Assembly: GCA_017935565.1 (NCBI GenBank) | Contig: JAGBHK010000030.1 | Span: 1 to 52,979 of the forward strand | From: Lachnospiraceae bacterium | GTDB taxonomy: Bacteria; Bacillota; Clostridia; Lachnospirales; Lachnospiraceae | DNA length: 52,979 nt | Reading direction: 5' to 3' | Program-made: the position numbers and the translations under genes | Shown: piece after piece, positions 16,002 to 33,427 of the stretch | Layout of the letters: each line of letters starts with the position of its first letter | Position numbering within the stretch: position 1 is the first letter of the stretch | Notes under the pieces: model-generated | The model's database searches: none | Told to the model about the DNA's origin: nothing | What the model saw: only the letters and a program-made list of their open reading frames with translations

Positions 16002-17015
16002 ATGAAAAAAAGAATTTTAGCAGTAATAGCAACAGCTATTATGGTTGTATCTTCAACAGTTATGGCATTTGCAGATACAACAACAGGCCTTGTGGGTCAG
16101 TTTAACTTCGATGGAAGTTTAAAGAATGAAGTAACAGGAAAAGAGGGCACACTAACAGCAGCTAAGGTTAATGCTGAACTTACAGGCTCAGAGGAAACAA
16201 TTTTCTCAAATGGTGTTACAGATCAGGCTATTATTTTACAGGGTTTAATGTCAAACTATGGTGTTAAATTAGATGTTGCTCCATCATCATATACATTTAC
16301 ATTGTCATATGATATCTATTACCTTAACTATAGCAAACATACAGCAACATTCTTCCTTACGAACGGATGGGAAGCAAATGCTGAAGAATGGGCAAGCTTT
16401 GGTAATGGTTGGCAGGAAACACTTGCTTTCGCAGCTGGTATCTGGGTACATGATCAGGTAAGCAAAACTCCTACAGAATGGGGTGATCTTTGGACAGCTG
16501 GTGGTAATGGTGATTTATTATTAGAAAATGATGCATGGACAGCATGGAAGAATATTACATATGTAGTAACAGAAGGTGTTGTACAGGTATATATCAATGG
16601 TGAAGCAGTAGAACAGGGTAATACACAGCCATATCTTGACTTTGTTGGTGCAAATACAATGTTATATCTTGGTGTAAATGCTTGGGATGCTCCACTTGAT
16701 GGTGCTGTTGATAACTTATATATCTATGACAGAGCTCTTACAGCTGATGATGTTAAGGAATTAGTAGCTGACAGAAATTATTCAGGATCTACAAAGCCAG
16801 AAGTATATGTTCCAGAAACAACATCTAACAAGGCTCAGGTTGCTGATAAGAACAATGCTCCTTACTTACAGGTAAACACAAATGCTGCAGACGAAGAAGC
16901 AGGTGGACTTGATTCAACAGTTATCATCATTGCAGTAGTAGTTGTAGTAGTTGTAGTAGTAGTTGCAGTTGTTGCTTCAAAGAAAAAAGGCAGCGACGAT
17001 GACGACGAAGAATAA
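16002..17015 (+). CDS. LamG/concanavalin-like surface protein, paralog 2
   Basis: The 337-residue paralog of the preceding gene has the same order: a signal peptide (MKKRILAVIATAIMVVSSTV..., cleaved near AFA-DTTTG), a LamG-like jelly roll (about 27-265) ending VDNLYIYDRALTADDV, a linker, a Val-rich membrane segment (about 302-325) and a short acidic tail SDDDDEE. Compared with paralog 1 the acidic tail is shorter. Codon use is more strongly biased, suggesting the more highly expressed copy. It has its own promoter and is followed by a strong terminator. The ligand is unknown. Confidence 0.8.
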   Translation: MKKRILAVIATAIMVVSSTVMAFADTTTGLVGQFNFDGSLKNEVTGKEGTLTAAKVNAELTGSEETIFSNGVTDQAIILQGLMSNYGVKLDVAPSSYTFTLSYDIYYLNYSKHTATFFLTNGWEANAEEWASFGNGWQETLAFAAGIWVHDQVSKTPTEWGDLWTAGGNGDLLLENDAWTAWKNITYVVTEGVVQVYINGEAVEQGNTQPYLDFVGANTMLYLGVNAWDAPLDGAVDNLYIYDRALTADDVKELVADRNYSGSTKPEVYVPETTSNKAQVADKNNAPYLQVNTNAADEEAGGLDSTVIIIAVVVVVVVVVVAVVASKKKGSDDDDEE

Positions 17016-17414: not shown

Positions 17415-17443
17415 TTGACAGATATGTAACAAGTGTATATAAT
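17415..17443 (+). promoter_or_regulatory. Consensus promoter of the glycan import locus
   Basis: TTGACA (17415-17420), a 17-base spacer and TATAAT (17438-17443) match the sigma-A consensus exactly. The leader before the first gene is about 100 bases. No cre-like or LacI-type operator was evident by eye. Confidence 0.8.
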
Positions 17444-17551
17444 ATTAACATAGTCTTATTCTGCCTGATTGTGCGCTATAGATAAAAATATTGATAAAAG
17501 TGCACAAAAATTGGGCGAATGAAAAAAATATACAGAGGGAGGCAAAAAGAT

Positions 17552-20500
17552 ATGAGACGTAATAGCCTGAAGCGCTTGATTGCTCTTACATTACTTATTT
17601 CGTTGTTTGCATGTGAATTTGTAGTATATGCAGAACCAACTACAGAAGATTCTAATGTAGTTACAGATGGAACAACAGAAGATAATAAAGATGCACAAGC
17701 AAACGGAACAACAGGCGACACTGGTTCAAGCAGTGTTAAGGACGAGTACGTTAACGAGATGATTGAAAAGAATTATACAAAAGTTAGCTCAAAGTACAAA
17801 TATCCAAAGTACAAGGGTGAAGATATCGTATATAAGATTACAGACATCTATGTTGACGGCGGTACAAAGACTGGAGATATTGACGGATACGAAGGCGACA
17901 GCGAAGTAGTTCAGCTCGAGTATGGTCAGACACTTACAGTAGTTATTCCTGTGGATAAGAAAGGTGTATATGAATTAGGTTTTGATTATTTATCATATGA
18001 AGCAGAATCTATTCTTGTACCAGAAGCAGAGATAACAATCGGTGGAGAGGTTCCTTTCTATGAATGTTACAGACAGCTTTATGAAAGTTTGTGGAAAGAT
18101 CCTGAAGAAAAATCTTACGATAGATATGATAATGAAATCGTAGGTACTCCACAAAAAGTTATGGAATGGAGTTACAAACCAATTTCTGACCCAAGTTATA
18201 GATATTCAACACCGCTTTATGTTCAGTTAGAAGAAGGTGACAATGAAATCACTATCACTCTTAACGAAGCAGAATTAAAGATTGGTAATTTCTATCTTAA
18301 GGCAGAAGCAAAGATTGATGAATACGAGAGCGGAAATACAGCTACAGGTGATTTCTTTGTAGAACTTGAAGCTGAAAGACCATTATTTAAGAATGATTCA
18401 TCTATCAGACCTACATGTGAGTATGATATTGACTTATCACCATATAACTCAAGCAAAAAAGTGCTTAATATTTTAGATGGAAGTTCTTTTGCTGATGCAG
18501 GTCAGACAATAGCATATGAAGTAGAAGTAGATGAAGACGGATATTATTACTTTGCGGTTAACTATCGTCAGAGTGATAAGGTAGACTTCCCGGTATTTAT
18601 GGATATAAAGGTTGATGGTGAAATACCTAATACTTTATTACAGGCATATGAATTTGATTATGCAAACAATTTTACTCTTCACACATTGCAGGATAATGCA
18701 GATGGTAAGATGGCTATTAAGCTTACAAAGGGAAAACATGTAATTTCCTTTACAATATCACATGATCCATTGAGAGTATCATTGGAAGAAGTTGATACTA
18801 TCATGAGCGAGATTAATGACCTTGCTCTTGAAGTTACAAAATTAGCAGGTACAAATACAAGTAAGTACAAGAACATCAAGATTGTTGATTACATTCCTAC
18901 TATTGAAGCAGACCTTCAGAAGTGGATTGATAAGTTAAATGTTATGTATGAAGAATTATCATCATATTCTGATGCTAAGAAGGTTGGTGCACTTTCTTCT
19001 ATATTAACAGCAATCGAAAAACTTGAAAGTTTCAAGAAAGACCCTAACGATATTCCATACAGATTAAAGGAACTTTCACAGAGCACAAGTTCTGTAAACC
19101 AGATGCTTGCTAACCTTATTACAACACTTGATGCTGACAATATTACATTTGATAGAATATTTGTATATCAGGAATCAAGCGAAGTAAATCTTCCTGAAAA
19201 GGAAAACATTTTCAAAAAGATTTGGGCTTCAATCGTTAGATTCTTCGAATCATTTAGCGATCAGTCATACACAGTTGGTTCTGGTGATGAGACACACTTA
19301 CAGGTATGGATCAACAGACCAAGACAGTATCTGGAAATCATCCAGCAGCTTATCGACAAAGAAGGCGGTTTTACAGATGAAACAGGTATTGAAGTAGACT
19401 TGTGTATCATGCCAGATGCACAGAAACTTATTTTATCCAATGCGGCGGGCGAAGCTCCAGACGTTGGTCAGGCGGTAGATTATGCACAGCCAATCGAATT
19501 TGCCTTGAGAGAGGCTATTGTTGATTTAACAAAGTTTGATTACTTTGAAGGCGATGAAGAATACTTAAATTATCAGAACGTATTAAGTCAGTTCCCAACA
19601 GGAATTCATATTCCTTCAACAATGAATGATGGTATTTATTCTATACCAGAAACATTCTACTTCTGGGTATTGTTCTACAGAACTGACGTTATGGATAAAC
19701 TTGGTTTAAAAGTTCCTGATACTCTTGATGATGTTAAGGCAATTGTTCCAAGTTTAACAAATAGAGGTCTTAGCTTCTATTATCCAACAGCAGGTACAAC
19801 AGGTACTAGAGTATTTGCTATGACAACACCTATCTTCTATCAGTATGGTGCTACACTTTATGATGAAGTTGCAGGTGATACAACAATTAACAGTGAAGCT
19901 GGTGTTGCAGCGTTTAAGGAACTTACAGAATTATTTACAATCTATGATTTACCTGTAGAAGCAAACTTCTACCAGAGATTTAGAGATGGTTCTATTCCTA
20001 TCGGTGTATCAGATTACTTCACATACAGCTTACTTATCAATGCTGCTCCAGAAATCGAAAACTCTTGGAAGATTTCACTTGTTCCAGGTGTTGAAGATGA
20101 AAATGGTGTTATTCAGAGACAGACAGCTGGTGCTGCTCAGAACTCAATTATCTTCAAGAGTGATGAAGGCGAAGGCCCTGTAGTTCTTAAGAATGGCGAA
20201 GAGATGGACAGAGAAGAAGCTGCATGGAGATATTTAGAGTGGTGGATGAGTACAGAAACTCAGGTAGAGTTTGGTACAATTCTTCAGACAACATATGGTA
20301 AAGAATACATTTGGAACTCTGCTAACATTGCAGCTATGGAAAAACTTCCATGGAAGAGCAGAGATAAGAAGGTAATTCTTGAACAAATGCAGAACATCAC
20401 AGAATCACCAAGAATTCCTGGTACATATATGCTCGAAAGAGAATTAAGTAATGCATACATTGCCGTAGTTATCGATGGTGAACCACTTAGAACAACTCTT

Positions 20501-20641
20501 GACTCAGCTGTTAAGTTGATGGATAGAGAAACAGCTAGAAAACTTAAAGAATTTGGTTATTTAGATGAACAGGGAAATGTTGTTAAAGAATACAAAGTAC
20601 CTACTGTTGAAACTGTAAAAGAAATCTTAGGTATGGATTAA
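17552..20641 (+). CDS. Large solute-binding protein with N-terminal beta-rich (CBM-like) domains
   Basis: The secreted 1029-residue protein is roughly twice the length of a usual family 1 sugar-binding protein. A signal peptide comes first (probable cleavage after VYA, near residue 28; a possible lipobox at LFAC is a poor match). Two beta-sandwich-like segments follow (about 45-270 and 285-420) resembling carbohydrate-binding modules, the second starting LEAERPLFKND. Next is a helical linker (about 420-590) and then the binding-protein lobe pair (about 595-1029; HLQVWINRPRQYLEII, EAPDVGQAVDYAQPIEFA). Its permeases follow directly. ATG at 17552 is chosen because GAGGGAGG (17535-17542) lies 9 bases upstream; the ATG at 17519 has no such site. 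The ligand is unknown, presumably an oligosaccharide. Confidence 0.85.
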   Translation: MRRNSLKRLIALTLLISLFACEFVVYAEPTTEDSNVVTDGTTEDNKDAQANGTTGDTGSSSVKDEYVNEMIEKNYTKVSSKYKYPKYKGEDIVYKITDIYVDGGTKTGDIDGYEGDSEVVQLEYGQTLTVVIPVDKKGVYELGFDYLSYEAESILVPEAEITIGGEVPFYECYRQLYESLWKDPEEKSYDRYDNEIVGTPQKVMEWSYKPISDPSYRYSTPLYVQLEEGDNEITITLNEAELKIGNFYLKAEAKIDEYESGNTATGDFFVELEAERPLFKNDSSIRPTCEYDIDLSPYNSSKKVLNILDGSSFADAGQTIAYEVEVDEDGYYYFAVNYRQSDKVDFPVFMDIKVDGEIPNTLLQAYEFDYANNFTLHTLQDNADGKMAIKLTKGKHVISFTISHDPLRVSLEEVDTIMSEINDLALEVTKLAGTNTSKYKNIKIVDYIPTIEADLQKWIDKLNVMYEELSSYSDAKKVGALSSILTAIEKLESFKKDPNDIPYRLKELSQSTSSVNQMLANLITTLDADNITFDRIFVYQESSEVNLPEKENIFKKIWASIVRFFESFSDQSYTVGSGDETHLQVWINRPRQYLEIIQQLIDKEGGFTDETGIEVDLCIMPDAQKLILSNAAGEAPDVGQAVDYAQPIEFALREAIVDLTKFDYFEGDEEYLNYQNVLSQFPTGIHIPSTMNDGIYSIPETFYFWVLFYRTDVMDKLGLKVPDTLDDVKAIVPSLTNRGLSFYYPTAGTTGTRVFAMTTPIFYQYGATLYDEVAGDTTINSEAGVAAFKELTELFTIYDLPVEANFYQRFRDGSIPIGVSDYFTYSLLINAAPEIENSWKISLVPGVEDENGVIQRQTAGAAQNSIIFKSDEGEGPVVLKNGEEMDREEAAWRYLEWWMSTETQVEFGTILQTTYGKEYIWNSANIAAMEKLPWKSRDKKVILEQMQNITESPRIPGTYMLERELSNAYIAVVIDGEPLRTTLDSAVKLMDRETARKLKEFGYLDEQGNVVKEYKVPTVETVKEILGMD

Positions 20642-20664
20642 TTTAACCGGGAGGATATGAAAAA

Positions 20665-21549
20665 ATGAAGACAAGTAAAACAACTCCATATATTTTCCTA
20701 CTTCCATATATAGTACTGTTTTCGGTATTTATTATAGTTCCGATTGCGATTGCTATTGGATTATCTTTTACAGATTTCAATACAATCCAGAGTCCGAACT
20801 TTGTAGGATTTATGAATTATATTAACTTATTTACACAGGATTCAATATTCATGCAGTTTGTACTTCCTAATACGATTACATTCTCGCTTATTGTTGGTCC
20901 TGGTGGATATTGTTTATCGTTTTTGTTAGCTTGGTCAATCGCTCAGTTTACAAAAGCACCAAGAACTGTATTAGCACTTATTTTCTACTCGCCATCTCTT
21001 ACAATGGGTACCGCGATGAATATTTTATGGAGAATTATTTTCTCTGGTGATAGCTATGGTTATGTAAACGCAGTTCTTCTTGACATGGGATTAATCAATG
21101 AACCTATTTTATGGCTCACAAGTAGCTCAACACTCCTTATAATTATGATTATCGTTGGTTTGTGGAGTAGTATGGGTATCGGATTCCTTGCTATTTTAGC
21201 TGGTATCATGAATGCTGATGATGAGTTATATGAAGCAGGCGCAATTGATGGTATTAAGAACAGATTCCAGGAAATGATTTATATCACAATTCCAACAATG
21301 AAACCACAGATGTTATTCGCAGCCGTTATGGCTATCGTTAACGCATTTAACAATGGTGCAATCGGTGTTACTTTATCGGGTTCAAACCCAACACCAGGTT
21401 ATGCAGGCCAGTTAATCGTTAACCACATTGATGACTATGGTTTCATCAGATTCGAGATGGGTTATGCAGCAGCTGTTTCAGTAGCATTGCTTCTTATCAT
21501 AACAGTATTCTCGAAAGTAGCAACAAAATTATTTGGTGAGAAAGAATAG
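20665..21549 (+). CDS. Sugar ABC transporter permease (MalF/UgpA type)
   Basis: The 294-residue inner-membrane permease has six predicted helices and the ATPase-contacting EAA loop ([15 protein letters not shown]). It pairs with the next permease and with the binding protein upstream. GGGAGG at 20649-20654 serves the ATG at 20665. An earlier ATG at 20657 gives only a three-codon frame (ATGAAAAAATGA) that overlaps the true start, so it is not the gene start. No ATP-binding subunit is encoded in the locus. Confidence 0.92.
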
Positions 21550-21563
21550 AAAGGAGAGAGAAA

Positions 21564-22436
21564 ATGGCCGGATATAAAGGAAATGGTATTAACCCAGCGA
21601 AATTTGAACGTGGTCAGATTAAAATATACATAGTGCTTTTGCCACTTGCTATATTTATGCTCTTTCCAATCGTTTACATTTTTTGCCATGCATTTAAACC
21701 AATGGAGGAATTATTCGAGTTCCCTCCAAAGTTTTACGTAAAGAATCCAACAACTGATAACTTTGAAGCATTATTTAAATCTGCTAGAAATGCTGGTATT
21801 CCACTTAGTAAATATGTGTTTAACAGTTTACTTGTAACACTTTCAGTATGTATTGGTGGTATTGTTATTTCAACAATGGCTGCTTACGCATTGTCAAAGA
21901 TGAGATTTAAAGTTAGAGGATTAATCTTCTCTATCAACCAGTCAGCGCTTATGTTCGTTGCTGCAGCAGTAATGATTCCAAGATACTTAATTATCAGTGG
22001 ATTGCATATAACAAACACATATTGGGCACATATTTTACCGCTTATTGCGATGCCGGTAAGTTTGTTCCTGATAAAACAGTTCGTTGATCAGGTTCCAGAT
22101 GCATTAATTGAAGCTGCATCTATCGATGGTGCTACACCTTTTAGAATTTACAGACAGATTATTATTCCACTTGTTAAGCCAGCTATTGCTACAGGTGTAA
22201 TTATGTCATTCCAGTCTGTATGGTCAAACGTTGAAACATCAAACCTTTATGTAAATACAGATGCGATGAAGACATTGACATTCTACGCAAATACACTTAG
22301 TAACGCGAACAACCTTGTTCAAGGTCAGGGTGTACAGGCGGCAGCTTCGTTAATCATGTTTATACCAAACTTGATTTTATTCATCTTCTTACAGAAAGAT
22401 GTTATGAACACAATGGCTCATTCAGGTATTAAATAG
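21564..22436 (+). CDS. Carbohydrate ABC transporter permease (MalG/UgpE type)
   Basis: The 290-residue partner permease has six predicted helices and the EAA motif EAASIDGATPFRIYRQI followed by IIIPLVKPAIATG. It begins 14 bases after the MalF-type gene behind AAAGGAGAG. It should form the translocation heterodimer with that protein and need an ATPase of the MsmX/UgpC kind from elsewhere in the genome. Confidence 0.92.
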   Translation: MAGYKGNGINPAKFERGQIKIYIVLLPLAIFMLFPIVYIFCHAFKPMEELFEFPPKFYVKNPTTDNFEALFKSARNAGIPLSKYVFNSLLVTLSVCIGGIVISTMAAYALSKMRFKVRGLIFSINQSALMFVAAAVMIPRYLIISGLHITNTYWAHILPLIAMPVSLFLIKQFVDQVPDALIEAASIDGATPFRIYRQIIIPLVKPAIATGVIMSFQSVWSNVETSNLYVNTDAMKTLTFYANTLSNANNLVQGQGVQAAASLIMFIPNLILFIFLQKDVMNTMAHSGIK

Positions 22437-22469
22437 TATTAGAAGATGAAATAAATAAAGGAGGTAAAT

Positions 22470-24686
22470 ATGAAGAAATTATTAAAGCGCGTAGCCTTGG
22501 TTTTATGCATGATAATAATTGCATTGTCAGTTTCAGAACCATTTGAAACATATGCAAAACTTCCATATTTGACATATACACAAAATGGATATGGTCAGTA
22601 TGTTGAAACTCAGGCTGCGTATACACCACATACAACAATTAGTAAAATCACAAGTGAAATTGAAGGAATCGATGATATGAGATTCGAAGAACCTTCAGAT
22701 ATCAAGATTACAGATGACGGATATATGTACATTTGTGATAAGAAAAACGCAAGAATTATCGTTGCAACAACCGATGGTAAACTCGACAGAGTAATCGGCG
22801 AAGAATGGTTGGAAGAACCTACAGGCGTATTCGTTATCGATAACGAAGATGACGGATATACATATGTATACGTTGCAGATAACAAGATGGCTAGAGAAGA
22901 AATGAACTCTGACCGTAAGGAACGTAAGAGAAATGGTGCTGTAGTTGTATTTAAGTACAAAAAAGGCACACCAGTAGAACTTATTCCACAGGATCCTATT
23001 TATTATGAAGCAACAGGTGTATGGGAAGAACAGCCACCTATTATCGATTATAAATGGGAAGTTGATAGATATTATCTCAAGCCAGAAAGCCCATTATACG
23101 GTGCTGGTAGATTTAACCCAATGAAGATTGCAGTAGACCAGAGCGGTATTATGTATATTATCAGTGAAGGTAATACAAATGGTATCGTACAGATTTCACC
23201 TGAAGAAGGCGGAACATTCCTTGGATACTTTGGTGCCAATGAAATTACAGTTTCATTAGGATATATGATTACAGAGTTCTTCATGTCAGATGACTCTACA
23301 GCAATCAGAGGTGTTGCGGATACACCATCTAATGTTAACGTTGATGAGGACGGACTTGTATATACAATTACAGCTTCTGAAGGTACATTACAGTCTGTTA
23401 AGAAACTTAATAAATCAGGCGCAAACATGTTAAAGACAGAAGTTAACCCAACTTTTGGTGTTGGTATTGCACCAGGTAGATATAACAATGTTTATGCTGT
23501 TACAAGTACAGGTTATATCTATGAATACACAAGTGAAGGTACATTGTTATTCAGATTTGGTGGTAAAGATGATCAGGCATTCCGTGTAGGTTTATTTGCT
23601 AACATTTCTGCTGTAGACGTTGATAATAATGATTATCTCTACGTTATGGATAGTATTAACAATGAAATTCAGGTATTCAAACCAACAGAATTTACTCAGT
23701 TGGTACATGAATCATTAGTATTGTATCAAAATGGTAGATATTCAGATAGTAAGAAGCCACTTGAACAACTTATACTTATGAATTCATTATTTGATTATGC
23801 TAACGAGGCTATGGGCCATGCATACTTCCAGGAAGAGAATTATGAGCAGGCTTTATATTACTACAGATTAGCTAAAGAAAAACAGGGTTATTCAGATTCA
23901 TTCTGGGAACTTAGAAATGATTGGCTTACATCTAATCTTATTTACCTTATTGTGATTATCGTAATATTCTGGTTAATCTTTAAGGTACTTGGTAAGATTG
24001 ATAAGAAGACAGGTCTTTTCAATGTTTACAGAAGAATGTGGAAGAAACTTAAGAAGAATAAATTAATATCACAGATCGCATATTGTAAGACTTATGCAAC
24101 ACATCCAATCGACGGTGCTTATGCAGTTAAGAGAGAAGGAATGGTTTCATATGGTGCAATTACATTCTTAATGATATTATTTATGGTAATTATGATTGTA
24201 AATAAATATTTCTCTGGTTTCCTTGTAAAGAATATGAGAGATGGTGTTTATTACATTCCAACAGATATTTTAACAGTAGTATTTGGTTTTGTATTTGCAT
24301 CAGCAGTAACATACCTTATTTGTACAATTTCAGATGGTGAAGGTAGATTTAAAGAAATCCTTATGGGTTACTTATATTCATTCACACCATATTTCATTAT
24401 CCAGCCAATTATTTATCTTGGTGGTATGATTGTTACAACTAATGAAATGTTCCTTATTCAGTTTGCAAATATAATCATGTTTGTATGGATTGCTATATTG
24501 TTATTCTTAACAATTAAAGAAATCAACAACTATACAGTAAAAGAAACATTTAAGGTAATTGGTATTACAATCTTTGCAGCTGTTGTATTCGTTGCTATTG
24601 CATTTATCTTATACATCTTAGCAGCACAGGTAATCAATTTCGTTAAGTCAATTTATGGAGAGGTGGTGTATCGACTTGAAAAATAA
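22470..24686 (+). CDS. Beta-propeller (NHL-like)/TPR/Yip1-like membrane protein
   Basis: This 738-residue composite protein has a signal peptide (about 1-29), a repeat region with NHL/SMP-30-like blades (about 60-400; PSDIKITDDGYMYICD, VDNNDYLYVMDSINNEIQVF), and a TPR-like helical pair (about 405-470; ALYYYRLAKEKQGYSDS). A membrane helix at about 490-512, then a cytoplasmic linker, lead to a Yip1-like bundle of about five helices (560-735). The propeller and TPR would face outward. Proteins of this architecture are, as I recall, common neighbours of ABC sugar importers and DUF5696 genes in Clostridia and Paenibacillus, with no known role. It may link ligand recognition or surface enzymes to the importer; this is inference. 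Its 3' end overlaps the next gene by 11 bases. Confidence 0.8.
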   Translation: MKKLLKRVALVLCMIIIALSVSEPFETYAKLPYLTYTQNGYGQYVETQAAYTPHTTISKITSEIEGIDDMRFEEPSDIKITDDGYMYICDKKNARIIVATTDGKLDRVIGEEWLEEPTGVFVIDNEDDGYTYVYVADNKMAREEMNSDRKERKRNGAVVVFKYKKGTPVELIPQDPIYYEATGVWEEQPPIIDYKWEVDRYYLKPESPLYGAGRFNPMKIAVDQSGIMYIISEGNTNGIVQISPEEGGTFLGYFGANEITVSLGYMITEFFMSDDSTAIRGVADTPSNVNVDEDGLVYTITASEGTLQSVKKLNKSGANMLKTEVNPTFGVGIAPGRYNNVYAVTSTGYIYEYTSEGTLLFRFGGKDDQAFRVGLFANISAVDVDNNDYLYVMDSINNEIQVFKPTEFTQLVHESLVLYQNGRYSDSKKPLEQLILMNSLFDYANEAMGHAYFQEENYEQALYYYRLAKEKQGYSDSFWELRNDWLTSNLIYLIVIIVIFWLIFKVLGKIDKKTGLFNVYRRMWKKLKKNKLISQIAYCKTYATHPIDGAYAVKREGMVSYGAITFLMILFMVIMIVNKYFSGFLVKNMRDGVYYIPTDILTVVFGFVFASAVTYLICTISDGEGRFKEILMGYLYSFTPYFIIQPIIYLGGMIVTTNEMFLIQFANIIMFVWIAILLFLTIKEINNYTVKETFKVIGITIFAAVVFVAIAFILYILAAQVINFVKSIYGEVVYRLEK

Positions 24687-27051
24687 TAAGTTAAAAAGAG
24701 TATTAAGCCTTGGTCTTGTATGCTTGATGTTTACACCAATTATTTCCTTTGCGACTGCTAAAAACAAAGCAGTGGAAGGTCTTACAAATGAAGTAATTAA
24801 CAGAGGTCCATTTATCATTGGTGATGTTAATGAAAATGAACTTCCAGAAGCTGAAAGACAGAAACTTGCTTTAGAAAAAGCAGTAGTTAAAGAAGTTGAA
24901 AATGGTGAGATTTATGGACATAAACTCATCACATCAAATGATAAGTACGAATTGTATCGTAAAGATGCTAATTGTTCAATCATTATTAGAGATATAGCGA
25001 GCGGTGCAATCTTTACATCGACTGTAAGTGAAGAAGATGCAAAAGCACGTAACTATAGTGCTGTTGCAGCAGCTCCTATTACATCAGGTATCGCGCTTTC
25101 TTACGTTGAAGAAAAAGATAACACGATTATATTAAACTCACCTATAGGTGTTAATACAGCAACAATCAAATATAAGGATGCGAAAGATGGCTTTACAGCA
25201 TCAATTAGTTTTTCAAATTTAGAAATATCATTTGATGTCGTAGTATCACTTGATGACGAAGGTCTTCATGTAGAAGTACCAGAAGACAAAATCGTTGAAG
25301 AAAATGCAGCATACTCAGTAGGTTCTATGTACATCTTTAATGGTCTTGGTATGACTGAAAAGGGTGACAGAGAAGGTTACATGATTCTTCCAGATGGTAA
25401 TGGTATTAGAGTTGACTTTGAGAATAACTTCTATGTATATGGTGGTACACAGGAAGCTGTTAAGTATTCATCAGGTTATATGCAAAGAGTATATGGCTCA
25501 GACTTCTCATTTGACTTAGCTAATACTTCAACATACGATGAGACAGATATGATTGGTACATCTAACTCAACTGAATCAATCATAGCTCCATTCTGGGGTA
25601 TGGTTCATACAGATACACAGTTTGGTGTACTTGGTATCATCACAAAGGGTGAAGAAAGTGCTAAGATTGAAGGTATATTAAACGGTGTTGCCGGCCTTTA
25701 TGAAAACTATTCAGGATGTAGAATTATTTACAGAGATACATACATGAGATCTCTTTCCGATACAAATCAGTATCAGGGTACTGTAACTGCTACACCAAAA
25801 AATAAACTTGTTGGAGATGTTGAAATTACATTCTTGTTTACAACTGGTGATAAGGCTAACTACATTGGTTTAGCTGAAAGTTACAGAAATAAGCTCATCG
25901 CTGATGGTGATTTAGTTAAGACAACTGACGGAACATTCAAGACTAGACTTGATTTCTTCGGTGTTGACAAGGAAGAATTCCTTGTATTTAAGACAGACGT
26001 TGTTGCAACAACAGTTGACAATGTAAAAGATATTTTAGCTGATTTAAAGTCAAACGGTGTTGAAGACATTCTTGCAATCTACACTGGATGGCAGCAAGGT
26101 GGATATTATGAGACACCTATAAAGAAATATGATGTAGCAAATTCAATCGGCGGTAATTCTGCAATGAATGATTTGTTTAAAGAACTTGAAGGCACAGGCG
26201 TTGACCTTTATCTTATGACAGATATGCAGCTTATCAATAAAGCAGTTGAGTCATCATCATATGACGCAGTTAAGACATATGGACAGAGAACAAAAGAAAT
26301 TTTCAGTCCATTCCTTAAGGTTTATAAGAACTTTAGATACTTAATTCCTGAATTGTCAAATGAATATATGGTTAAATTATCAGATGACATGAAGAAAGAT
26401 GGAATTGGAAATATCGCGTTTAGTGGTATTAGTACTTCATTATTCTCATATTTTAAGAATGATACTCAGTACACAAGACAGGATGTAATAGATCACTATG
26501 TATCTGCACTTGATAAAGTTAGCGCTGATATGGATATAGTTCTTGAAAATCCATTTAAGTATATGTGGAAGTACACAGATTCGTATATTGATATGCCATT
26601 GTATTCATCAATGTTCGTATACGCATCAGATGAAATTCCATTTGTATCAAGTGTATTAAAGGGAACAATTGATGTATATTCTGAATATGTAAACTTTGAA
26701 GCTAACGCAACAGAGTATTTCCTTAAACTTGTTGAAACAGGTGTATATCCTTCATTCCTTCTTACAGAGGAATCACCAACAGAGTTGTTACATACAAACT
26801 CAAGTTGGATATATTCATCTGAATATGAACAGTATGATGAAAGAATTGCAGAATATCACAAAGAATTAAAAGCAATTAATGATAAAGTTTCAGGCGCAGT
26901 TATTGTAGCTCATGAAAAATCAGATGAAGGTTTATCTAAAACAACATACTCAAACGGTGTTGTTGTATACGTAAACTTCTCAGAAAAGGCAATAATTGAA
27001 AATGGTGAAACTATTGAAGCATTATCATATAAGGTAGGTGAAGCAGAATGA
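24676..27051 (+). CDS. Secreted DUF5696-like protein, possible glycoside hydrolase fold
   Basis: The 791-residue exported protein starts with a signal peptide (MKNNKLKRVLSLGLVCLMF..., cleavage near SFATA). A beta-rich region (about 65-400) resembles the N-terminal sandwich of large glycosidases, and a second half (about 415-720) alternates strands and helices like a TIM barrel (ILAIYTGWQQGGYY, DLYLMTDMQ, DIVLENPF). I recall this as the DUF5696 family; catalytic residues are not established, though acidic residues in the barrel strands could serve. TTG at 24676 is chosen because the strong GGAGAGGTGG is at 24657-24666 and the signal peptide then starts correctly; an ATG at 24655 overlaps that site. 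It overlaps the next gene by 4 bases (ATGA). Confidence 0.75.
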   Translation: MKNNKLKRVLSLGLVCLMFTPIISFATAKNKAVEGLTNEVINRGPFIIGDVNENELPEAERQKLALEKAVVKEVENGEIYGHKLITSNDKYELYRKDANCSIIIRDIASGAIFTSTVSEEDAKARNYSAVAAAPITSGIALSYVEEKDNTIILNSPIGVNTATIKYKDAKDGFTASISFSNLEISFDVVVSLDDEGLHVEVPEDKIVEENAAYSVGSMYIFNGLGMTEKGDREGYMILPDGNGIRVDFENNFYVYGGTQEAVKYSSGYMQRVYGSDFSFDLANTSTYDETDMIGTSNSTESIIAPFWGMVHTDTQFGVLGIITKGEESAKIEGILNGVAGLYENYSGCRIIYRDTYMRSLSDTNQYQGTVTATPKNKLVGDVEITFLFTTGDKANYIGLAESYRNKLIADGDLVKTTDGTFKTRLDFFGVDKEEFLVFKTDVVATTVDNVKDILADLKSNGVEDILAIYTGWQQGGYYETPIKKYDVANSIGGNSAMNDLFKELEGTGVDLYLMTDMQLINKAVESSSYDAVKTYGQRTKEIFSPFLKVYKNFRYLIPELSNEYMVKLSDDMKKDGIGNIAFSGISTSLFSYFKNDTQYTRQDVIDHYVSALDKVSADMDIVLENPFKYMWKYTDSYIDMPLYSSMFVYASDEIPFVSSVLKGTIDVYSEYVNFEANATEYFLKLVETGVYPSFLLTEESPTELLHTNSSWIYSSEYEQYDERIAEYHKELKAINDKVSGAVIVAHEKSDEGLSKTTYSNGVVVYVNFSEKAIIENGETIEALSYKVGEAE

Positions 27052-28262
27052 AAAAGACTAAGACAGATGAAGAATTAAATAATGTATCAAACGAAGCTGC
27101 CTTGGTTAACGAAGCTGCTACCGATGATGCAAAGAAGAAAAAGAAGAAAAAATATACAGTAGAAGAACTTTTAAATAACGACGATATCGAACTTGTTGAC
27201 GAGTATGGTAGAAGACGTAAAGTAAAAGTTAAAGTACACGAAAGTAAACTTACTAAGAGAGAGAACAGAATGGGATATTTCTTTGTATTCCCATATATCA
27301 TTGGTGTAATTGCATTCTTGTTTTACCCAATGGTTAGAACTTTCTGGTATATGTTCTGTAGAGTAAGAATTGCAAACAATGCAATTGTTACAGAATGGAA
27401 CAATTTTGAGAACTTTGGAAAAGCTGTTTCAGAATACGTTACATTTAAAACAGATATTACAGCTTTGATAAGTAAAATGATATCATATGTACCACTGATA
27501 GTAGTATTTGCGCTTATTATATCAATGTTCCTTAATTTAAATATTAAGGGTAAAGGTATATTTAGAACAATTTTCTTCATACCGGTTATCGTTACAAGTG
27601 GTCCGGTTATGCAGGATTTATTAAACAGTTCAAACTCAATTAGTGCGGTTGATATTTCAATTATCACTAATACATTGAACTCAATGTTACCACCATTCCT
27701 TGCTGATATGTTATCAACAGTATTTGGTAATATTATTACAATTTTGTGGTATACAGGTGTTCAGATACTTATTTTCCTTGCTGCTATCCAGAAGATTGAT
27801 ACTTCACTTTATGAAGCAGCAAAGATTGACGGTGGTTCAAATTGGGAATGTTTCTGGAAGATTACATTACCTACAATTAAGCCAATGATTTTGCTTAATG
27901 CAGTATACACAACAATTTTCCTTTGCCAGGATACAAACAACAACTGGATTATTGGTCGTATCACATATGTTGTTAATAACGGTGTAAATGGTTATGGTCA
28001 GGGTTCAGTTATCGCTTGGATTTTGAATGTAGTAGTTCTTATATTCGTTGGTATTGTATTCCTTCTCTTTAAAGAAAAGAGAGATGCATATGCTAAACAG
28101 ATTGCAAAGAATAAGAAATTCGAAAAGAAAGCAAAGAAGCTTGTTAAGAAGCAGGCTAAGAAAACTGCAAAGAACGCTGTTAAGTTCGAAAAGGCTTTAC
28201 AGAAGGAAGCAAAATTAAAAGCAAAAGGAAAAGACTTGAGAGGAGGATACGAAGATGTCTAA
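27048..28262 (+). CDS. Sugar ABC transporter permease with Lys-rich ends
   Basis: The 404-residue MalF-type permease has six helices between about 78 and 345 and the EAA loop EAAKIDGGSNWECFWKI. It is longer than its relatives because of an 75-residue charged N-terminus (DDAKKKKKKKYTVEELLNND) and a C-terminal cytoplasmic tail of about 60 residues dominated by Lys and Ala (KKAKKLVKKQAKKTAKNA). The start overlaps the previous stop (ATGA), and it overlaps the next permease by 8 bases, so translation is coupled throughout. It forms the second importer together with the next permease and the lipoprotein at 29534. Confidence 0.9.
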   Translation: MKKTKTDEELNNVSNEAALVNEAATDDAKKKKKKKYTVEELLNNDDIELVDEYGRRRKVKVKVHESKLTKRENRMGYFFVFPYIIGVIAFLFYPMVRTFWYMFCRVRIANNAIVTEWNNFENFGKAVSEYVTFKTDITALISKMISYVPLIVVFALIISMFLNLNIKGKGIFRTIFFIPVIVTSGPVMQDLLNSSNSISAVDISIITNTLNSMLPPFLADMLSTVFGNIITILWYTGVQILIFLAAIQKIDTSLYEAAKIDGGSNWECFWKITLPTIKPMILLNAVYTTIFLCQDTNNNWIIGRITYVVNNGVNGYGQGSVIAWILNVVVLIFVGIVFLLFKEKRDAYAKQIAKNKKFEKKAKKLVKKQAKKTAKNAVKFEKALQKEAKLKAKGKDLRGGYEDV

Positions 28263-29313
28263 AAAAGAAAAACTTGACGTAGTTAAGTCAGAAGCAAAGG
28301 CAGCTAAAGCGGCAAAAGCCGAAGCTAAAAAGATAAAGAAAACAAAAACTCCTCTTTCAAAAGAAAAAGTAAGAAAAATGCTTTTTGGAAGCAAAGATGA
28401 CATTGGTCTTCTTAAGAAACTTGCAGTATATATAATACTTATAGGTGTAGGATTTATTTTCATTTTACCTATATTATCAATTATCAGTACAAGTTTCATG
28501 TCACTCGATGACTTACTTGACCCAGGTGTTGTATGGTTCCCATCGCAGTTTAGTTTCAAAAACTATAGACTTGCAATGGATACCATGAATTTTGGTAAAT
28601 CACTTGTAGACAGTTTGATACTTTCAGGTGTACCATCACTTATTCAGGTTGTAACTTGTTCTATAGTAGGATATGGACTTGCAAGATACAACTTTAAAGG
28701 AAAGAACCTCATATTTATGATTCTTATTGTTTCATTTATTATGCCACAGCAGCTTACAATTCTTGAAACATTTAGAGTTTACAATGATATGGGATTCACA
28801 GGAACAATTTGGGCATATGCTGCTCCTGCTATTTTTGGTCAGGGTATTAAGTCTCAGCTGTTTATCCTTATTTGTTGGTCATTCTTTAAGCAGATACCAA
28901 AGGCATTGTCAGAAGCAGCACAGATTGACGGTGCAGGACACTTTAAGCAGTTCTTTAGAATTGCTATTCCATCAGCATCAGGCGCTTTAATAGTAGTATT
29001 ATTATTCTCATTCGTATGGTATTGGAATGAAGAATTCTTAGCAAACTTATACTTCTATACAAGTTCAGGTGCTATGATTGGTGAAAAAGAAGGTTATGGT
29101 TTCACACCACTTATTACACAGTTGGCTAAATTTGATGGACAGTATAATAAGTCAAGAGACGCAAATAATGCAGGTTCTGATAAGCCTACACTTAGTACAT
29201 CTCTTAGTATGTGTGCTACAGTACTTACAATTGCACCACTTCTTTTGTTATATTTCATATTACAGAAGCAGTTCGTTGAGAGCGTTGATAGAGCCGGTAT
29301 TACTGGTGAATAA
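28255..29313 (+). CDS. Carbohydrate ABC transporter permease with Lys/Ala-rich N-terminus
   Basis: The 352-residue MalG-type permease has six predicted helices starting near residue 58 and the EAA loop EAAQIDGAGHFKQFF. Before the first helix is a 55-residue Lys/Ala-rich stretch (KSEAKAAKAAKAEAKKIKK), the counterpart of the tail on its partner. GAGGAGGA just upstream of the ATG lies inside the preceding gene. The two basic extensions would both be cytoplasmic, where the ATPase docks. Confidence 0.9.
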   Translation: MSKKEKLDVVKSEAKAAKAAKAEAKKIKKTKTPLSKEKVRKMLFGSKDDIGLLKKLAVYIILIGVGFIFILPILSIISTSFMSLDDLLDPGVVWFPSQFSFKNYRLAMDTMNFGKSLVDSLILSGVPSLIQVVTCSIVGYGLARYNFKGKNLIFMILIVSFIMPQQLTILETFRVYNDMGFTGTIWAYAAPAIFGQGIKSQLFILICWSFFKQIPKALSEAAQIDGAGHFKQFFRIAIPSASGALIVVLLFSFVWYWNEEFLANLYFYTSSGAMIGEKEGYGFTPLITQLAKFDGQYNKSRDANNAGSDKPTLSTSLSMCATVLTIAPLLLLYFILQKQFVESVDRAGITGE

Positions 29314-29386
29314 TAACTAATATGTTTTATTATGTAATTTTGCTAAAAAAAGTTACTCAAATACAAAAGTCTTTGTGTAATGTGCA

Positions 29387-29415
29387 TTGACAAAGTGAAA
29401 TTTATATAGTAAAAT
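29387..29415 (+). promoter_or_regulatory. Internal promoter before second binding protein
   Basis: TTGACA (29387-29392), a 17-base spacer and TAAAAT (29410-29415) lie in the 220-base gap before the lipoprotein gene and give it an independent, probably stronger, transcript. Confidence 0.72.
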
Positions 29416-29446
29416 ATAAAAGGTAAAAAAAGCATTAAATTATTCG

Positions 29447-29505
29447 CAAAAAACGAATTATTTGATTTAGAATTAGTTTATTTTAAGATAATAATTCGTT
29501 TTTTG
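29447..29505 (+). promoter_or_regulatory. 16-bp leader hairpin (attenuator or mRNA-stabilising stem)
   Basis: CAAAAAACGAATTATT (29447-29462) and AATAATTCGTTTTTTG (29490-29505) are perfectly complementary. The stem lies between the internal promoter and the ribosome binding site. Its descending arm carries TTTTTT, so it may act as a leaky terminator for read-through or as a 5' stabiliser of the binding-protein mRNA. Confidence 0.6.
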
Positions 29506-29533
29506 TAGAAAAATTAAGGAGGAAGGAAAGAAA

Positions 29534-31102
29534 ATGAAGAAAAATCTTAAGAAGCTTTTATGCTTAGCGCTTGTAGTTGCTCTTACTGGTTCTCTCTTTA
29601 CAGCTTGTAAGAAGAAAACAGCAACAACAACTCAGGAAACAGTTACTCTTGCTCCTATGACAACAGAAGAAATCACACTTGTGTATTCTTGTTGGCAGGA
29701 CATCGAGATTAGTGAAGCTTTAGCTGCAGAATTCCATGAGGAATATCCAAACATTACTGTAGAAGTAAAAGAATTCGCAGTTGAATCAAACAATGCTGAA
29801 TTAATAGCGCTTGCAGCTACTGGTGATTTACCAGATGCGTTCTGGGTATTAAACTCACCTGACGTATTCATTACAAACGGTTTACTTCTTGATATGTCAC
29901 TTCTTTGGGAAGCTGACCAAGATTCAAAGAACGTAATCAAAGGTATCAATGAATACAAGATCGGTTACCTTGGAACAGAAGGAAAGTGGACAACACCAGT
30001 TAAGTTTTTCCCAACAGCAGCATTCGTTAACTTAGACGTTTTCCTTAGAAACGGTGATGCTATGCCTAGCACAGACTGGACATGGGAAGAATTCGAAGAA
30101 ACAGTTGAAAAAATGTCAAAGAAGGATAAAGTTGATGGTCAGTACATCTTCGGTTACAATGCTGGATGTACAGTTATCACATGGTATCCAATCGCTGCAG
30201 ATAAAGACTGTATCGGTGAATTCGGTTGGAATGGTAGCGAATACGATATGGAAAACTGGGCATACGGTATGAACCTTGAAGCTGAATGGATTCAGAAAGA
30301 ATACAAGCCATACGCATTAGGTAATGGTGGTGAAGCTCAGCGTGCAAGATTATACGGTGGTACAGCAGAAGCTCCTAACGTATTACATCCACAGGACGTT
30401 GGTTATGTAGCTATCTACACAGATAACTGGTGGACATGGGAAGATTACTGGATTACAGAAAATTGGATTGAAAAGAACAAAGTTATTTTCGTTCCTTATT
30501 TAATGCCACATGAAGAAGACGCTGAAGGCGGTAACTATATCGCTACAATGGATATGGGTGGTATCTCTCCATATTCAGATTGGCCACGTGAAGCATATGA
30601 ATTACTTAAGTATATGACATGGGGACCACAGGGTTGGGAAAAGAAGATCGAGCACTATCCAAACCTTCTTGAGAAATCAACAGGTGAAGACAGAGCAGTA
30701 TCTAAGAACCACTGCCCAATTACATTAGATGAAGGTGTTTGGGAAAGCTTTAGAGCTTGGCATCCAAACGTAGATGATCCATCATCTGATGAAGCTGTTG
30801 TATCATTATGGGGTGAAGAATATGCTAGAGCTGAATACTTCGAAGACTTCTTCGATGGTGTTATGGACGGTACATGGGTATGCTACGGTGGACAGCAGAT
30901 TCCAGGTTTTGGTACATGGTTAGACAAGATTTACTTCGGTAACGATAACGAACAGAACTTCGGTTATTCTGAAAAGTTAGGTATTGAAAATGCATGTATC
31001 TACGGTGGTGTTAATGCAGAAGACTACTATGTATACCTTCAGGAAGAAGGAAACAGAGTAAATAAAGAAAAACTTCAGGAAATCGAAGATTACTTAGAGT
31101 AA
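29534..31102 (+). CDS. Solute-binding lipoprotein of carbohydrate ABC importer
   Basis: The 522-residue family 1-type extracellular binding protein has a lipoprotein signal peptide ending SLFTAC (Cys about 25), a Thr-rich linker, then the two-lobed fold starting VYSCWQDIEISEALAAEF. The mature part is rich in Trp and other aromatics (WGPQGWEKK, NWWTWEDYWITENW), as expected for stacking on sugar rings. It is anchored outside the membrane and should deliver ligand to the permease pair encoded immediately upstream. Codon bias and its own promoter suggest abundant synthesis, usual for binding proteins. AAGGAGGAAGG precedes the ATG, and a strong terminator follows the gene. Confidence 0.92.
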   Translation: MKKNLKKLLCLALVVALTGSLFTACKKKTATTTQETVTLAPMTTEEITLVYSCWQDIEISEALAAEFHEEYPNITVEVKEFAVESNNAELIALAATGDLPDAFWVLNSPDVFITNGLLLDMSLLWEADQDSKNVIKGINEYKIGYLGTEGKWTTPVKFFPTAAFVNLDVFLRNGDAMPSTDWTWEEFEETVEKMSKKDKVDGQYIFGYNAGCTVITWYPIAADKDCIGEFGWNGSEYDMENWAYGMNLEAEWIQKEYKPYALGNGGEAQRARLYGGTAEAPNVLHPQDVGYVAIYTDNWWTWEDYWITENWIEKNKVIFVPYLMPHEEDAEGGNYIATMDMGGISPYSDWPREAYELLKYMTWGPQGWEKKIEHYPNLLEKSTGEDRAVSKNHCPITLDEGVWESFRAWHPNVDDPSSDEAVVSLWGEEYARAEYFEDFFDGVMDGTWVCYGGQQIPGFGTWLDKIYFGNDNEQNFGYSEKLGIENACIYGGVNAEDYYVYLQEEGNRVNKEKLQEIEDYLE

Positions 31103-31127: not shown

Positions 31128-31160
31128 AAGCGCTACATCTTAGGATGTAGCGCTTTTCTT
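31128..31160 (+). terminator. Terminator after second binding protein
   Basis: AAGCGCTACATC (31128-31139) and GATGTAGCGCTT (31144-31155) form a perfect 12-bp stem with a 4-base loop, followed by TTCTTC. It separates the importer from the alpha-galactosidase gene. Confidence 0.87.
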
Positions 31161-31284: not shown

Positions 31285-33387
31285 GTGTCAATTAAAGAAA
31301 TTTCAAAGGTACAGGTCGGCGATATGATATTGAAATATGAATTAGAAGAAGATTTCAATACAGCCGGATTTTCTATTCATCCAGCAGATATGGATGAGGA
31401 AGATAATAAAAGTAAGTTCTATAGAATTAATTCTATGGTTCAGATGAAACTTGTTGGAGATAAGTATCCAAATTGTTATGGGCATGGTTCATCTATGAGA
31501 AATGGTGAATCGGCTAATTTTTTAGATTATCAAAGCCAAATTGTTGAGGAAACAGAAGATAAGACTATTGTAAAAACATTTCTTAAAGATAATAGAGGTT
31601 ATGACGTAGTTCATATGATTACATATTATGAAGGTGATGATAGTTTTGAGATGAAAAATATTATCACAAATAATTCCGAAGCACCTATTACTTTAGAAAT
31701 GATATCAAGTTTTGAACTTGGTAATATTACTCCTTTTATTGAGGGAGACGCGCCTGATAGTTTATTAGTTCATAGACTTAGAAGTAAATGGAGTCATGAA
31801 GGTAGATTATATACTGAGACAGTAGAGGATATGCAATTAGAACCATCTTGGTCAACATGGTCTGTTAGTACAGAAAGATTTGGTCAAACAGGGTCTATGC
31901 CTGTAAAGAAGTATTTCCCATTTGTTGCAGTTGAAGATACTAAAAATGATGTATTTTGGGGAGTTCAATTAGCTCACGAAGCATCATGGCAGATGGAAAT
32001 ATACAGACAGGATGACGCATTACATCTTACAGGTGGACTTGCAGATAGAGAGTTTGGACATTGGACAAAGACATTGCAACCAGGTGAAAGTTTTGAAACA
32101 CCTTACGCTATAGTAAGTACATGTCATGGCGGTGGAATTGATATGATTTGTCAAAGACTTACAAAGGCTGGACAGAAATACTTAGAAGATGCACCTGAGT
32201 CAGAACAGCATTTACCTATAATATTTAATGAATATTGTACAACATGGGGTAATCCTTCTCATGAGAATATTTCAGGAATTATTGATGCAATTAAGGACAA
32301 AGGTTTTGAATATTTTGTTATTGACTGTGGTTGGTTTAAAGAAGACGGCATTCCTTGGGATATAAGTATGGGAGATTACAATATTTCACCTACTTTATTT
32401 AAAGATGGTTTACAAAAAACTGTTGATTTAATTAATGATGCAGGCATGAAGGCAGGTATTTGGTTTGAAATAGACAATATTGGTCCTGCAGCAAAAGCTT
32501 ATAATACAACTGACCATCAATTAAAACGTGATGGATATCCTATATCAACATACAGTAGAAGATTCTGGGATATGAGAGACCCATGGGTTACAGATTATCT
32601 TACAAAGAAAGTTATTGGAACTTTAAAAGACTATGGCTTTGAATATATGAAGATGGATTACAATGATACAATCGGTATCGGTTGTGATGGTGCAGAATCT
32701 CTTGGCGAAGGTTTGAGACAGAATATGGATGCATCAGTTGATTTTGTAAGAAAAGTAAAGGAAGAGGTACCTGGTATTATTCTTGAAAACTGTTCTTCTG
32801 GTGGTCATAAATTAGAGCCATTAATGATGAGTATTTGCCCTATGGCATCATTCTCGGATGCTCATGAAACTGAAGAAATTCCTGTAGTTGCAGCGAATTT
32901 ACACAGAGCAATTCTTCCTCGTCAAAGCCAGATTTGGGCTGTAATTAGAGAAAAAGATACACCTAAGAGAATTGCATATTCTGTTGCAAATACTTTCCTT
33001 GGAAGAATGTGTTTATCTGGTGATGTTACAAATCTTACAGAAGAACAGTGGAAACCAATTGATGAAGGTATGGCATTCTATAAGAAGATTGCACCAATTA
33101 TTAAAAATGGTTTTACACACAGAGTTGGTCCAAAACTTACAAGCGAAAGACATTTGAAAGGATGGCAGGGTGTAGTTCGTGTAGGTGAGAATAACGAGGC
33201 ATATGTACTTATTCACACATTTAGAGGCGAGTATCCTGAGTATATCGAAGTAGAATTACCAAAGAATTGTCCAACAACAATCGCAGATGTATATTCAGAT
33301 ACAGATGTTGATGTGGTGGTAGAAAATGGTGTTTTAAGATATAAGACAAGCGATGAAATGAAAGCAATGGCAGTTAGATTGGTATAA
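31285..33387 (+). CDS. GH36-type alpha-galactosidase, cytoplasmic
   Basis: The product (700 residues) hydrolyses terminal alpha-galactosyl residues, as in raffinose-type sugars, if the family assignment holds. It has an N-terminal beta supersandwich (to about 300), a (beta/alpha)8 barrel (about 310-610) and a C-terminal sheet. D458 in KMDYND fits the catalytic nucleophile and D525 in FSDAHETEE the acid/base. GIWFEIDNIGP and ENCSSGGHKLEP are further family blocks. No signal peptide is present, so it acts on imported oligosaccharide. GTG at 31285 follows GGAGG (31271-31275) by 9 bases. The sequence is somewhat unlike the classic AgaA type, so another alpha-linked substrate is possible. AT-rich sequence at 31236-31266 may be its promoter. 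Confidence 0.85.
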   Translation: MSIKEISKVQVGDMILKYELEEDFNTAGFSIHPADMDEEDNKSKFYRINSMVQMKLVGDKYPNCYGHGSSMRNGESANFLDYQSQIVEETEDKTIVKTFLKDNRGYDVVHMITYYEGDDSFEMKNIITNNSEAPITLEMISSFELGNITPFIEGDAPDSLLVHRLRSKWSHEGRLYTETVEDMQLEPSWSTWSVSTERFGQTGSMPVKKYFPFVAVEDTKNDVFWGVQLAHEASWQMEIYRQDDALHLTGGLADREFGHWTKTLQPGESFETPYAIVSTCHGGGIDMICQRLTKAGQKYLEDAPESEQHLPIIFNEYCTTWGNPSHENISGIIDAIKDKGFEYFVIDCGWFKEDGIPWDISMGDYNISPTLFKDGLQKTVDLINDAGMKAGIWFEIDNIGPAAKAYNTTDHQLKRDGYPISTYSRRFWDMRDPWVTDYLTKKVIGTLKDYGFEYMKMDYNDTIGIGCDGAESLGEGLRQNMDASVDFVRKVKEEVPGIILENCSSGGHKLEPLMMSICPMASFSDAHETEEIPVVAANLHRAILPRQSQIWAVIREKDTPKRIAYSVANTFLGRMCLSGDVTNLTEEQWKPIDEGMAFYKKIAPIIKNGFTHRVGPKLTSERHLKGWQGVVRVGENNEAYVLIHTFRGEYPEYIEVELPKNCPTTIADVYSDTDVDVVVENGVLRYKTSDEMKAMAVRLV

Positions 33388-33397
33388 TCTTAAAGTG

Positions 33398-33427
33398 AAA
33401 ATAGGCTGGAAAACCAGCCTATTTTTT
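33398..33427. terminator. Bidirectional terminator between the galactosidase and spoVA
   Basis: AAAATAGGCTGG (33398-33409), an AAAA loop and CCAGCCTATTTT (33414-33425) serve the two convergent units. The stem overlaps the last codons and the TAG stop of spoVAE on the minus strand. Confidence 0.85.

Follow-up and report, generated by a model that had tools for sequence, protein, structure and literature searches.

We describe a gene cassette in a 52,979-nt stretch of DNA from a Lachnospiraceae bacterium (assembly GCA_017935565.1, contig JAGBHK010000030.1, positions 1–52,979; hereafter the window), in which open reading frames (ORFs) and profile matches place nine genes on one strand in the order SBP1-P1-P2-N-Y-DUF5696-P3-P4-SBP2-GH36, where SBP stands for solute-binding protein, P for permease, GH for glycoside hydrolase and N-Y for an NHL propeller-TPR-Yip1 protein. 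The main new results are that N-Y and the DUF5696 protein form a near-obligate pair, that DUF5696 has its ancestry in the GH129 glycosidases, and that the GH129 catalytic pair is lost in most cassettes. We propose, giving the reading an even chance, that the cassette serves plant-glycan import, with two CUT1-type importers sharing a pseudo-glycosidase and the N-Y protein as a scaffold, and with an arabinose-containing substrate in the window.

Conservation of the cassette

In a sample of 299 genomes of the family, a strong DUF5696 match (<1e-50) was found in 63 and N-Y in 62; every one of the 62 N-Y genomes has the strong DUF5696 match and 62 of the 63 DUF5696 genomes have N-Y, the lone exception (G328) encoding a shorter protein that is one of the bridging relatives described below. 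The DUF5696 cut-off was passed in 26 of 299 genomes sampled from the phylum, and the genome of the window encodes one DUF5696 protein. A single-sequence DUF5696 search of genome contigs gave 0 relatives, and the broad alignment A1 was too divergent for a scan of the collection; the narrower A2, used in its place, gave 230 relatives, of which the best 80 were kept. These 80 named loci, a window-like clade with records from Lachnospiraceae, Roseburia, Butyrivibrio, Acetatifactor, Fusicatenibacter and Lachnoclostridium phytofermentans among them, are counted here as 79, since L215 has no called DUF5696 (a long antisense ORF), and they were compared alongside 124 neighbourhoods from the sampled genomes.

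N-Y directly precedes DUF5696 in 120 of the 124 loci (of the rest, three are cut by contig ends and one is an artefact of the threshold) and in 76 of the 79 named ones, in agreement with the tight coupling noted in the first-pass annotation. At least two permeases follow DUF5696 in 115 of the 124 loci (5 cut) and in 71 of 79 named loci, so that the pair is not found mostly away from ATP-binding cassette (ABC) importers, a distribution that would have told against a single machine. SBP1 and its permeases lie upstream in 94 of 124 loci (15 cut, 15 not upstream) and in 70 of 79 named loci; among the 15 without an upstream SBP1, it lies downstream in four (L044, L062, L069, L070) and is not seen in the other 11. 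The least firmly attached member is SBP2: 34 of the 124 loci and 69 of the 79 named ones have a matching SBP no more than 4.5 kb downstream. The propeller-TPR and Yip1 parts are encoded by two adjacent genes in 51 of the 124 loci and by one gene in 65. Some apparent exceptions are artefacts of ORF calling and were kept as misses: N-Y went uncalled in L131 and L159, whose layouts contain it, because of an overlap above 150 bases, and in L231 and L215 because of long antisense ORFs, and in several loci only one permease was counted. Chance was rejected as an explanation of the gene order; the cassette is a fixed module, far beyond what chance would give.

The 11 cassettes with no SBP1 in the fetched stretch (L035, L038, L039, L046, L047, L049, L052, L053, L054, L057, L061) come from genomes of two other families (f46, f61) and have varied glycosidases nearby; other cassettes of these families do carry SBP1 (e.g. 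L050, L064).

Relationship of DUF5696 to GH129

The window protein matches DUF5696 (PF18952) at 501.8 bits, against a cut-off of 25.6, over positions 3–612 of 612. Its structure model has a glycosidase fold, with the GH129 fold spanning residues 89–798, which bears out the exported glycosidase fold first suggested from the sequence, and the DUF5696 profile matches that of GH129 at 1.1e-12. The whole fold is held in common with the GH129 glycosidases NagBb (5wzn) and ZgGH129 (5opq, 8rzk), and judged by profile and model DUF5696 is a remote GH129 relative. The profile comparison relied on here used broad profiles with the window protein or L058 as master, in which 533–548 columns aligned. A PDB search found GH129 with the broad profiles A1 and A8 and not with the narrow profile A3; PF11308, the Pfam GH129 family, did not match the window protein with the E limit set at 1, and it was absent from the matches listed (25 of 36 families) for 35 DUF5696 members. 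A search for GH129 members gave no hit in 149 phylum genomes; in the family to which genome G066 belongs, 27 of 197 genomes had them.

From 25 GH129 loci (L244–L268), 23 proteins longer than 550 aa were aligned, L264 and L265 being dropped, and in all 23 D538 and E582 are invariant, 44 residues apart. The catalytic residues of NagBb we take to be Asp435 and Glu478, 43 residues apart. D538 is taken as the nucleophile and E582 as the acid/base of the set on the basis of ZgGH129 D486N (title of 8rzk) and of the NagBb pair. Profile alignments (hhalign) place E582 on E631 of the window protein, numbered on its 798-aa ORF, and leave a gap at D538 beside G591, so that the assignment of G591 to the nucleophile position rests on bridging sequences. 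In one alignment all nine bridging relatives (L272–L280) carry an Asp where the window protein has G591 and a Glu where it has E631; they were drawn from 11 weak DUF5696 matches that were fetched (L272–L282), L281 (DUF6259) and L282 being left out as other kinds.

One of these relatives, a 559-aa DUF5696-type protein at L274:676–2355 (DUF5696 match 8e-53), has both catalytic acids intact and bridges the cassette DUF5696 and GH129. The others (L272, L273, L275–L280) are free-standing NagBb-related proteins of ~630–680 aa that keep both GH129 catalytic acids and are likely to be uncharacterised intracellular relatives in Lachnospiraceae; those scanned (L272, L275, L277, L278) match the DUF5696, GH101, GH129 and DUF6259 models at once. 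The DUF6259 protein, at L281:302–2287, has a DUF5696 match just under the cut-off and ties another unnamed family to the fold.

In the window clade the nucleophile position (G591 in the window) holds Gly in place of the Asp of GH129 in 25 of 25 rows. An acid stands at this position in 0 of 25 rows of the window clade, in 17 of the 42 rows from other fused cassettes, in 37 of the 51 split-type rows and in 3 of the 7 remaining rows, and at position 631 in 21, 20, 8 and 1 of these rows, respectively (50 of 125 in all); acids occupy both positions in only 14 of the 125 DUF5696 rows. The DUF5696 profile does not retain the residues in which 5wzn differs from its quadruple mutant 5wzq (e.g. His and Asp in LHLDGW). 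Conserved in the window clade are D523 (21/25), D646 (21/25) and E682 (24/25), and across the DUF5696 family D283 (acidic in 114/125) and E694 (113/125); an aromatic residue (W479) is also conserved. A match of D523 to D482 of GH129 was not used as evidence, D482 being placed differently across alignments.

By these alignments the GH129 catalytic pair is decayed in most cassettes. Because the pair is not kept, binding is the more economical role for DUF5696, which is probably a glycan-binding pseudo-glycosidase and not a trimming enzyme; trimming by the GH129 mechanism is unlikely for the window protein, and its catalysis is doubtful. The suggestion of the first-pass annotation that the locus trims its glycan is, given the invariant glycine, not supported, though the acid/base position is still mostly acidic in the same clade.

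The N-Y protein and the importer subunits

The C-terminal bundle of N-Y passes the cut-off of the Yip1 family (PF04893; 46.2 against 28.6 bits), its helices lying at 561–737 of the 738-aa model, and the model confirms an NHL-type propeller, which also filled the match list of the structure search (Foldseek, VIA). The model leaves over no cytoplasmic signalling domain. Model and profile matches agree with the arrangement first read from the sequence, a propeller outside and a Yip1 bundle in the membrane, and the models of the two central proteins thus do contain the propeller and the glycosidase fold that the single-machine idea requires. The extracellular domain of PknD and the NHL domains of TRIM and Brat proteins have the NHL-type propeller in common with N-Y, in which, in contrast, the propeller is followed by TPR helices and a Yip1 membrane bundle, without a kinase or RING. 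The Yip1 family has the C-terminal membrane bundle in common with N-Y, but in N-Y the bundle is fused to, or encoded beside, an extracellular propeller within an importer operon.

With an SBP and two permeases carrying an EAA-type loop, read by eye in all four permeases (P1–P4), the locus has the make-up of a CUT1 ABC importer; P1 with P2 and P3 with P4 form two complete permease pairs. The nearest solved SBP to SBP1 is Lin1841 (1.4e-21, profile positions 580–863); CBM_35 was found in 4 of 35 SBP1 members scanned, the window SBP1 not among them. There is no ATPase gene in the operon, and a search of the same genome (81% complete) for a MalK/MsmX-type ATPase gave 0 OB_MalK matches and one TOBE_2 match. 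That sole TOBE_2 match (G000:C38:136584–136772) lies in an ATPase read as PotA-like, beside a PotB-like permease.

Organisation of the locus

The two sets of a binding protein and two permeases flanking two large genes were confirmed, with all nine genes in the order first described. The features of the locus, all on the forward strand, are as follows.

17415–17443, +, promoter-like site, 12/12 consensus (TTGACA-17-TATAAT), 75 bases before SBP1
17519–20641, +, SBP1, 1040-aa solute-binding protein; SBP domain C-terminal, N-terminal extension of ~550 aa
20665–21549, +, P1 permease; E 9e-4, below cut-off; GlcT model 8e-16, below cut-off
21564–22436, +, P2 permease; profile match E 1.7e-15
22470–24686, +, N-Y, NHL propeller-TPR-Yip1 membrane protein; profile matches and structure model
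24655–27051, +, DUF5696 protein, GH129-like fold, exported; likely start TTG at 24676; 798-aa ORF
27048–28262, +, P3 permease; E 1.3e-8; charged N- and C-terminal extensions read from the sequence
28255–29313, +, P4 permease; profile match E 5e-15
29387–29415, +, promoter-like site, 11/12 consensus, before SBP2
29534–31102, +, SBP2, lipoprotein-type solute-binding protein, 522 aa; ORF and profile match
31128–31155, +, terminator-like hairpin, 12 pairs, between SBP2 and GH36
31285–33387, +, accessory GH36-type protein lying outside the conserved core; no signal peptide seen
33397–33426, +, terminator-like hairpin, after GH36

P4 and SBP2 are separated by 220 bases and SBP2 and GH36 by 182. Promoter-like and terminator-like sites occur in the window in numbers at or near chance (69 promoter-like sites against 72.8 expected in shuffles, that before SBP1 being the only 12/12 site listed; 10 hairpins against 6.0 expected, sd 2.6). 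From the sites before SBP1 and SBP2 and the hairpins after SBP2 and GH36, the core genes look like one transcript and GH36 is probably transcribed apart from them; SBP2 may be made in excess.

Upstream of SBP1, at 14665–15777 and 16002–17015, lie genes for two exported Laminin_G_3 (concanavalin-like) proteins with a hydrophobic C-terminal segment and an acidic tail, possibly lectins of the cell surface that belong to this locus; in 5 of 68 relatives the first neighbour upstream of SBP1 is a Laminin_G_3 gene. A 667-aa protein at 8506–10509, with an N-terminal hydrophobic segment and an acidic low-complexity stretch, has 0 Pfam matches at 0.001.

Glycosidase neighbours and the likely substrate

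Neighbour tallies in the named loci cover a single upstream gene from 68 of the 80 loci, a single downstream gene from 66 of them and 83 of 87 genes further downstream; elsewhere they cover 93 of 137 downstream genes in split loci and, where no SBP1 was called, 57 of 68. The first gene of at least 250 aa upstream of SBP1 in the named loci is most often Alpha-L-AF_C (27), which we take to be GH51, or GH43 (15); the first gene downstream belongs to GH43 in 22 loci, to Melibiase (GH36) in 6 and to Alpha-L-AF_C in 3, and further downstream lie GH43 (29), Alpha-L-AF_C (15), L-arabinose isomerase (2) and GH127 (1). Downstream of split-type cassettes the genes scanned include GH130 (7), GH26 (4), GH3 (4), GH67 (2) and GH10 (2), that is, these cassettes adjoin what by sequence are mannan- and xylan-type loci, and loci without a called SBP1 have a mixed set of neighbours. 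As the glycosidase neighbours differ by cassette type, the platform seems to be substrate-neutral, and the window copy seems to lie nearest to arabinose-containing glycans. On arabinan, C. phytofermentans is reported to up-regulate 22 ABC transporters (PMC4230839).

The first-pass annotation had taken the GH36 gene as a hint of an alpha-galactoside, a suggestion on which the evidence points both ways. In its favour, GH36 lies downstream in all five best-scoring named relatives (L155–L159), and 12 of the 12 solved relatives found for the GH36 protein are alpha-galactosidases. Against it, no more than 7 of 80 named layouts contain GH36; the single NCBIfam match of the GH36 protein is the beta-L-arabinopyranosidase NF053652, at 168.5 bits far under the cut-off of 1100; and a GH43 gene follows GH36 in four of the five (L155, by Pfam, and L156, L158 and L159, 62–69% identical to that of L155), GH43 and GH51 being the commonest neighbours in the clade. 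Since alpha-galactosidases of Arabidopsis act also on beta-L-arabinopyranosyl residues (PMC5853685), GH36 cannot choose between the two substrates. GH36 alone was rejected as a substrate marker for its rarity in the named layouts and for the hairpin that separates it from SBP2.

Discussion

On the reading we favour, the window holds a copy of a plant-glycan import cassette that is conserved in Lachnospiraceae and related Firmicutes, and in which SBP1-P1-P2 and P3-P4-SBP2 would be two CUT1-type ABC importers that share two extracellular accessory proteins. DUF5696, as a GH129-derived pseudo-glycosidase, would hold an end or branch of the oligosaccharide at the cell surface, while N-Y would sit in the membrane beside the permeases and position DUF5696 and the binding proteins over them; the oligosaccharide, here presumably an arabinose-containing one from plants, would then be handed over to the permeases. 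A single surface machine, as first envisaged, is plausible and is strongly hinted at by synteny.

Several observations weigh against this reading. The narrow profile A3 aligned only 75 columns to GH129 (54.6%), and only ~305–317 columns aligned with some split-type or other sequences as master. Some or all DUF5696 proteins could still be enzymes, for 14 of 125 rows keep both acids, D283 and E694 are kept family-wide, and the window protein keeps E631 and D523. The nearest neighbour by SBP1 is that by DUF5696 in only 44 of 86 loci (39–52 for other parts), mirror-tree agreement partly reflects shared ancestry, and an operon with two complete importers might serve just for the uptake of two sugars. 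The window itself has no GH51 or GH43 beside the cassette, only GH36, and GH43 and GH51 neighbours would fit arabinoxylan also.

A somewhat unlikely alternative is that two independent importers are co-transcribed and that N-Y and DUF5696 serve only the P3-P4 importer. In its favour, both permease pairs are complete, 15 of 124 loci lack SBP1 and its permeases upstream, and in 9 of the 11 loci with no SBP1 at all N-Y, DUF5696 and two permeases are together; yet in 94 of the 109 loci that are not cut SBP1 and its permeases stand in front, in fixed order, and DUF5696 is tracked by P1 no less closely than by P3 and P4 (0.83 vs 0.76 and 0.82, and among same-genome pairs 0.86 vs 0.59 and 0.63). We think it improbable that DUF5696 is an active surface glycosidase of changed mechanism that trims the glycan before import, using for example E631 with D523, D646 or E682, or the family-wide D283 and E694. 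The GH129 fold over nearly the full length, the alignment of E631 with the acid/base Glu and its retention in the window clade, and the other conserved acids named above all suit such an enzyme, but the nucleophile position is glycine throughout that clade, only 8 of 51 split-type rows have an acid at the acid/base position, and D283 and E694 are not at GH129 catalytic positions. Most doubtful is a role of N-Y and DUF5696 as glycan sensor and regulator of the locus, with the propeller reading the ligand and the Yip1 bundle passing the signal: the N-Y model has no cytoplasmic signalling domain to spare, and both genes sit within the permease operon.

The gram-positive polysaccharide utilization loci (gpPULs) of Roseburia are alike in having CUT1-type importers of an SBP and two permeases with glycosidases nearby, and a table in the accessible part of PMC5320581 lists gpPULs with ABC or '2 x ABC', among them an arabinan gpPUL with GH51 and GH127. 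The cassette differs from them in having four permeases and two SBPs, and in two further surface proteins that are conserved; in that same part of the source there is no mention of Yip1 or DUF5696 proteins. A literature search that left out most subscription papers found no paper naming DUF5696, none joining GH129 with a domain of unknown function and Paenibacillus, and none combining Yip1, NHL and ABC transport. The cassette may, we tentatively suggest at slightly less than an even chance, represent a new class of glycan uptake complex in Firmicutes, in which one ABC importer, or a pair of them, is joined by a membrane-embedded scaffold of propeller and Yip1 parts and by a docking subunit, a pseudo-glycosidase exapted from GH129; it would be a single platform interchangeable among arabinan, mannan and xylan loci and a gram-positive functional counterpart of the SusCD surface machine.

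The pair is present in about a fifth of the sampled family genomes (62/299), in some of them in several copies, and adjoins arabinan-, mannan- and xylan-type enzymes. If the reading is true, DUF5696 gains a fold, an ancestry and a testable role, and if N-Y and DUF5696 are import subunits, current models of oligosaccharide capture by fibre fermenters miss two parts.
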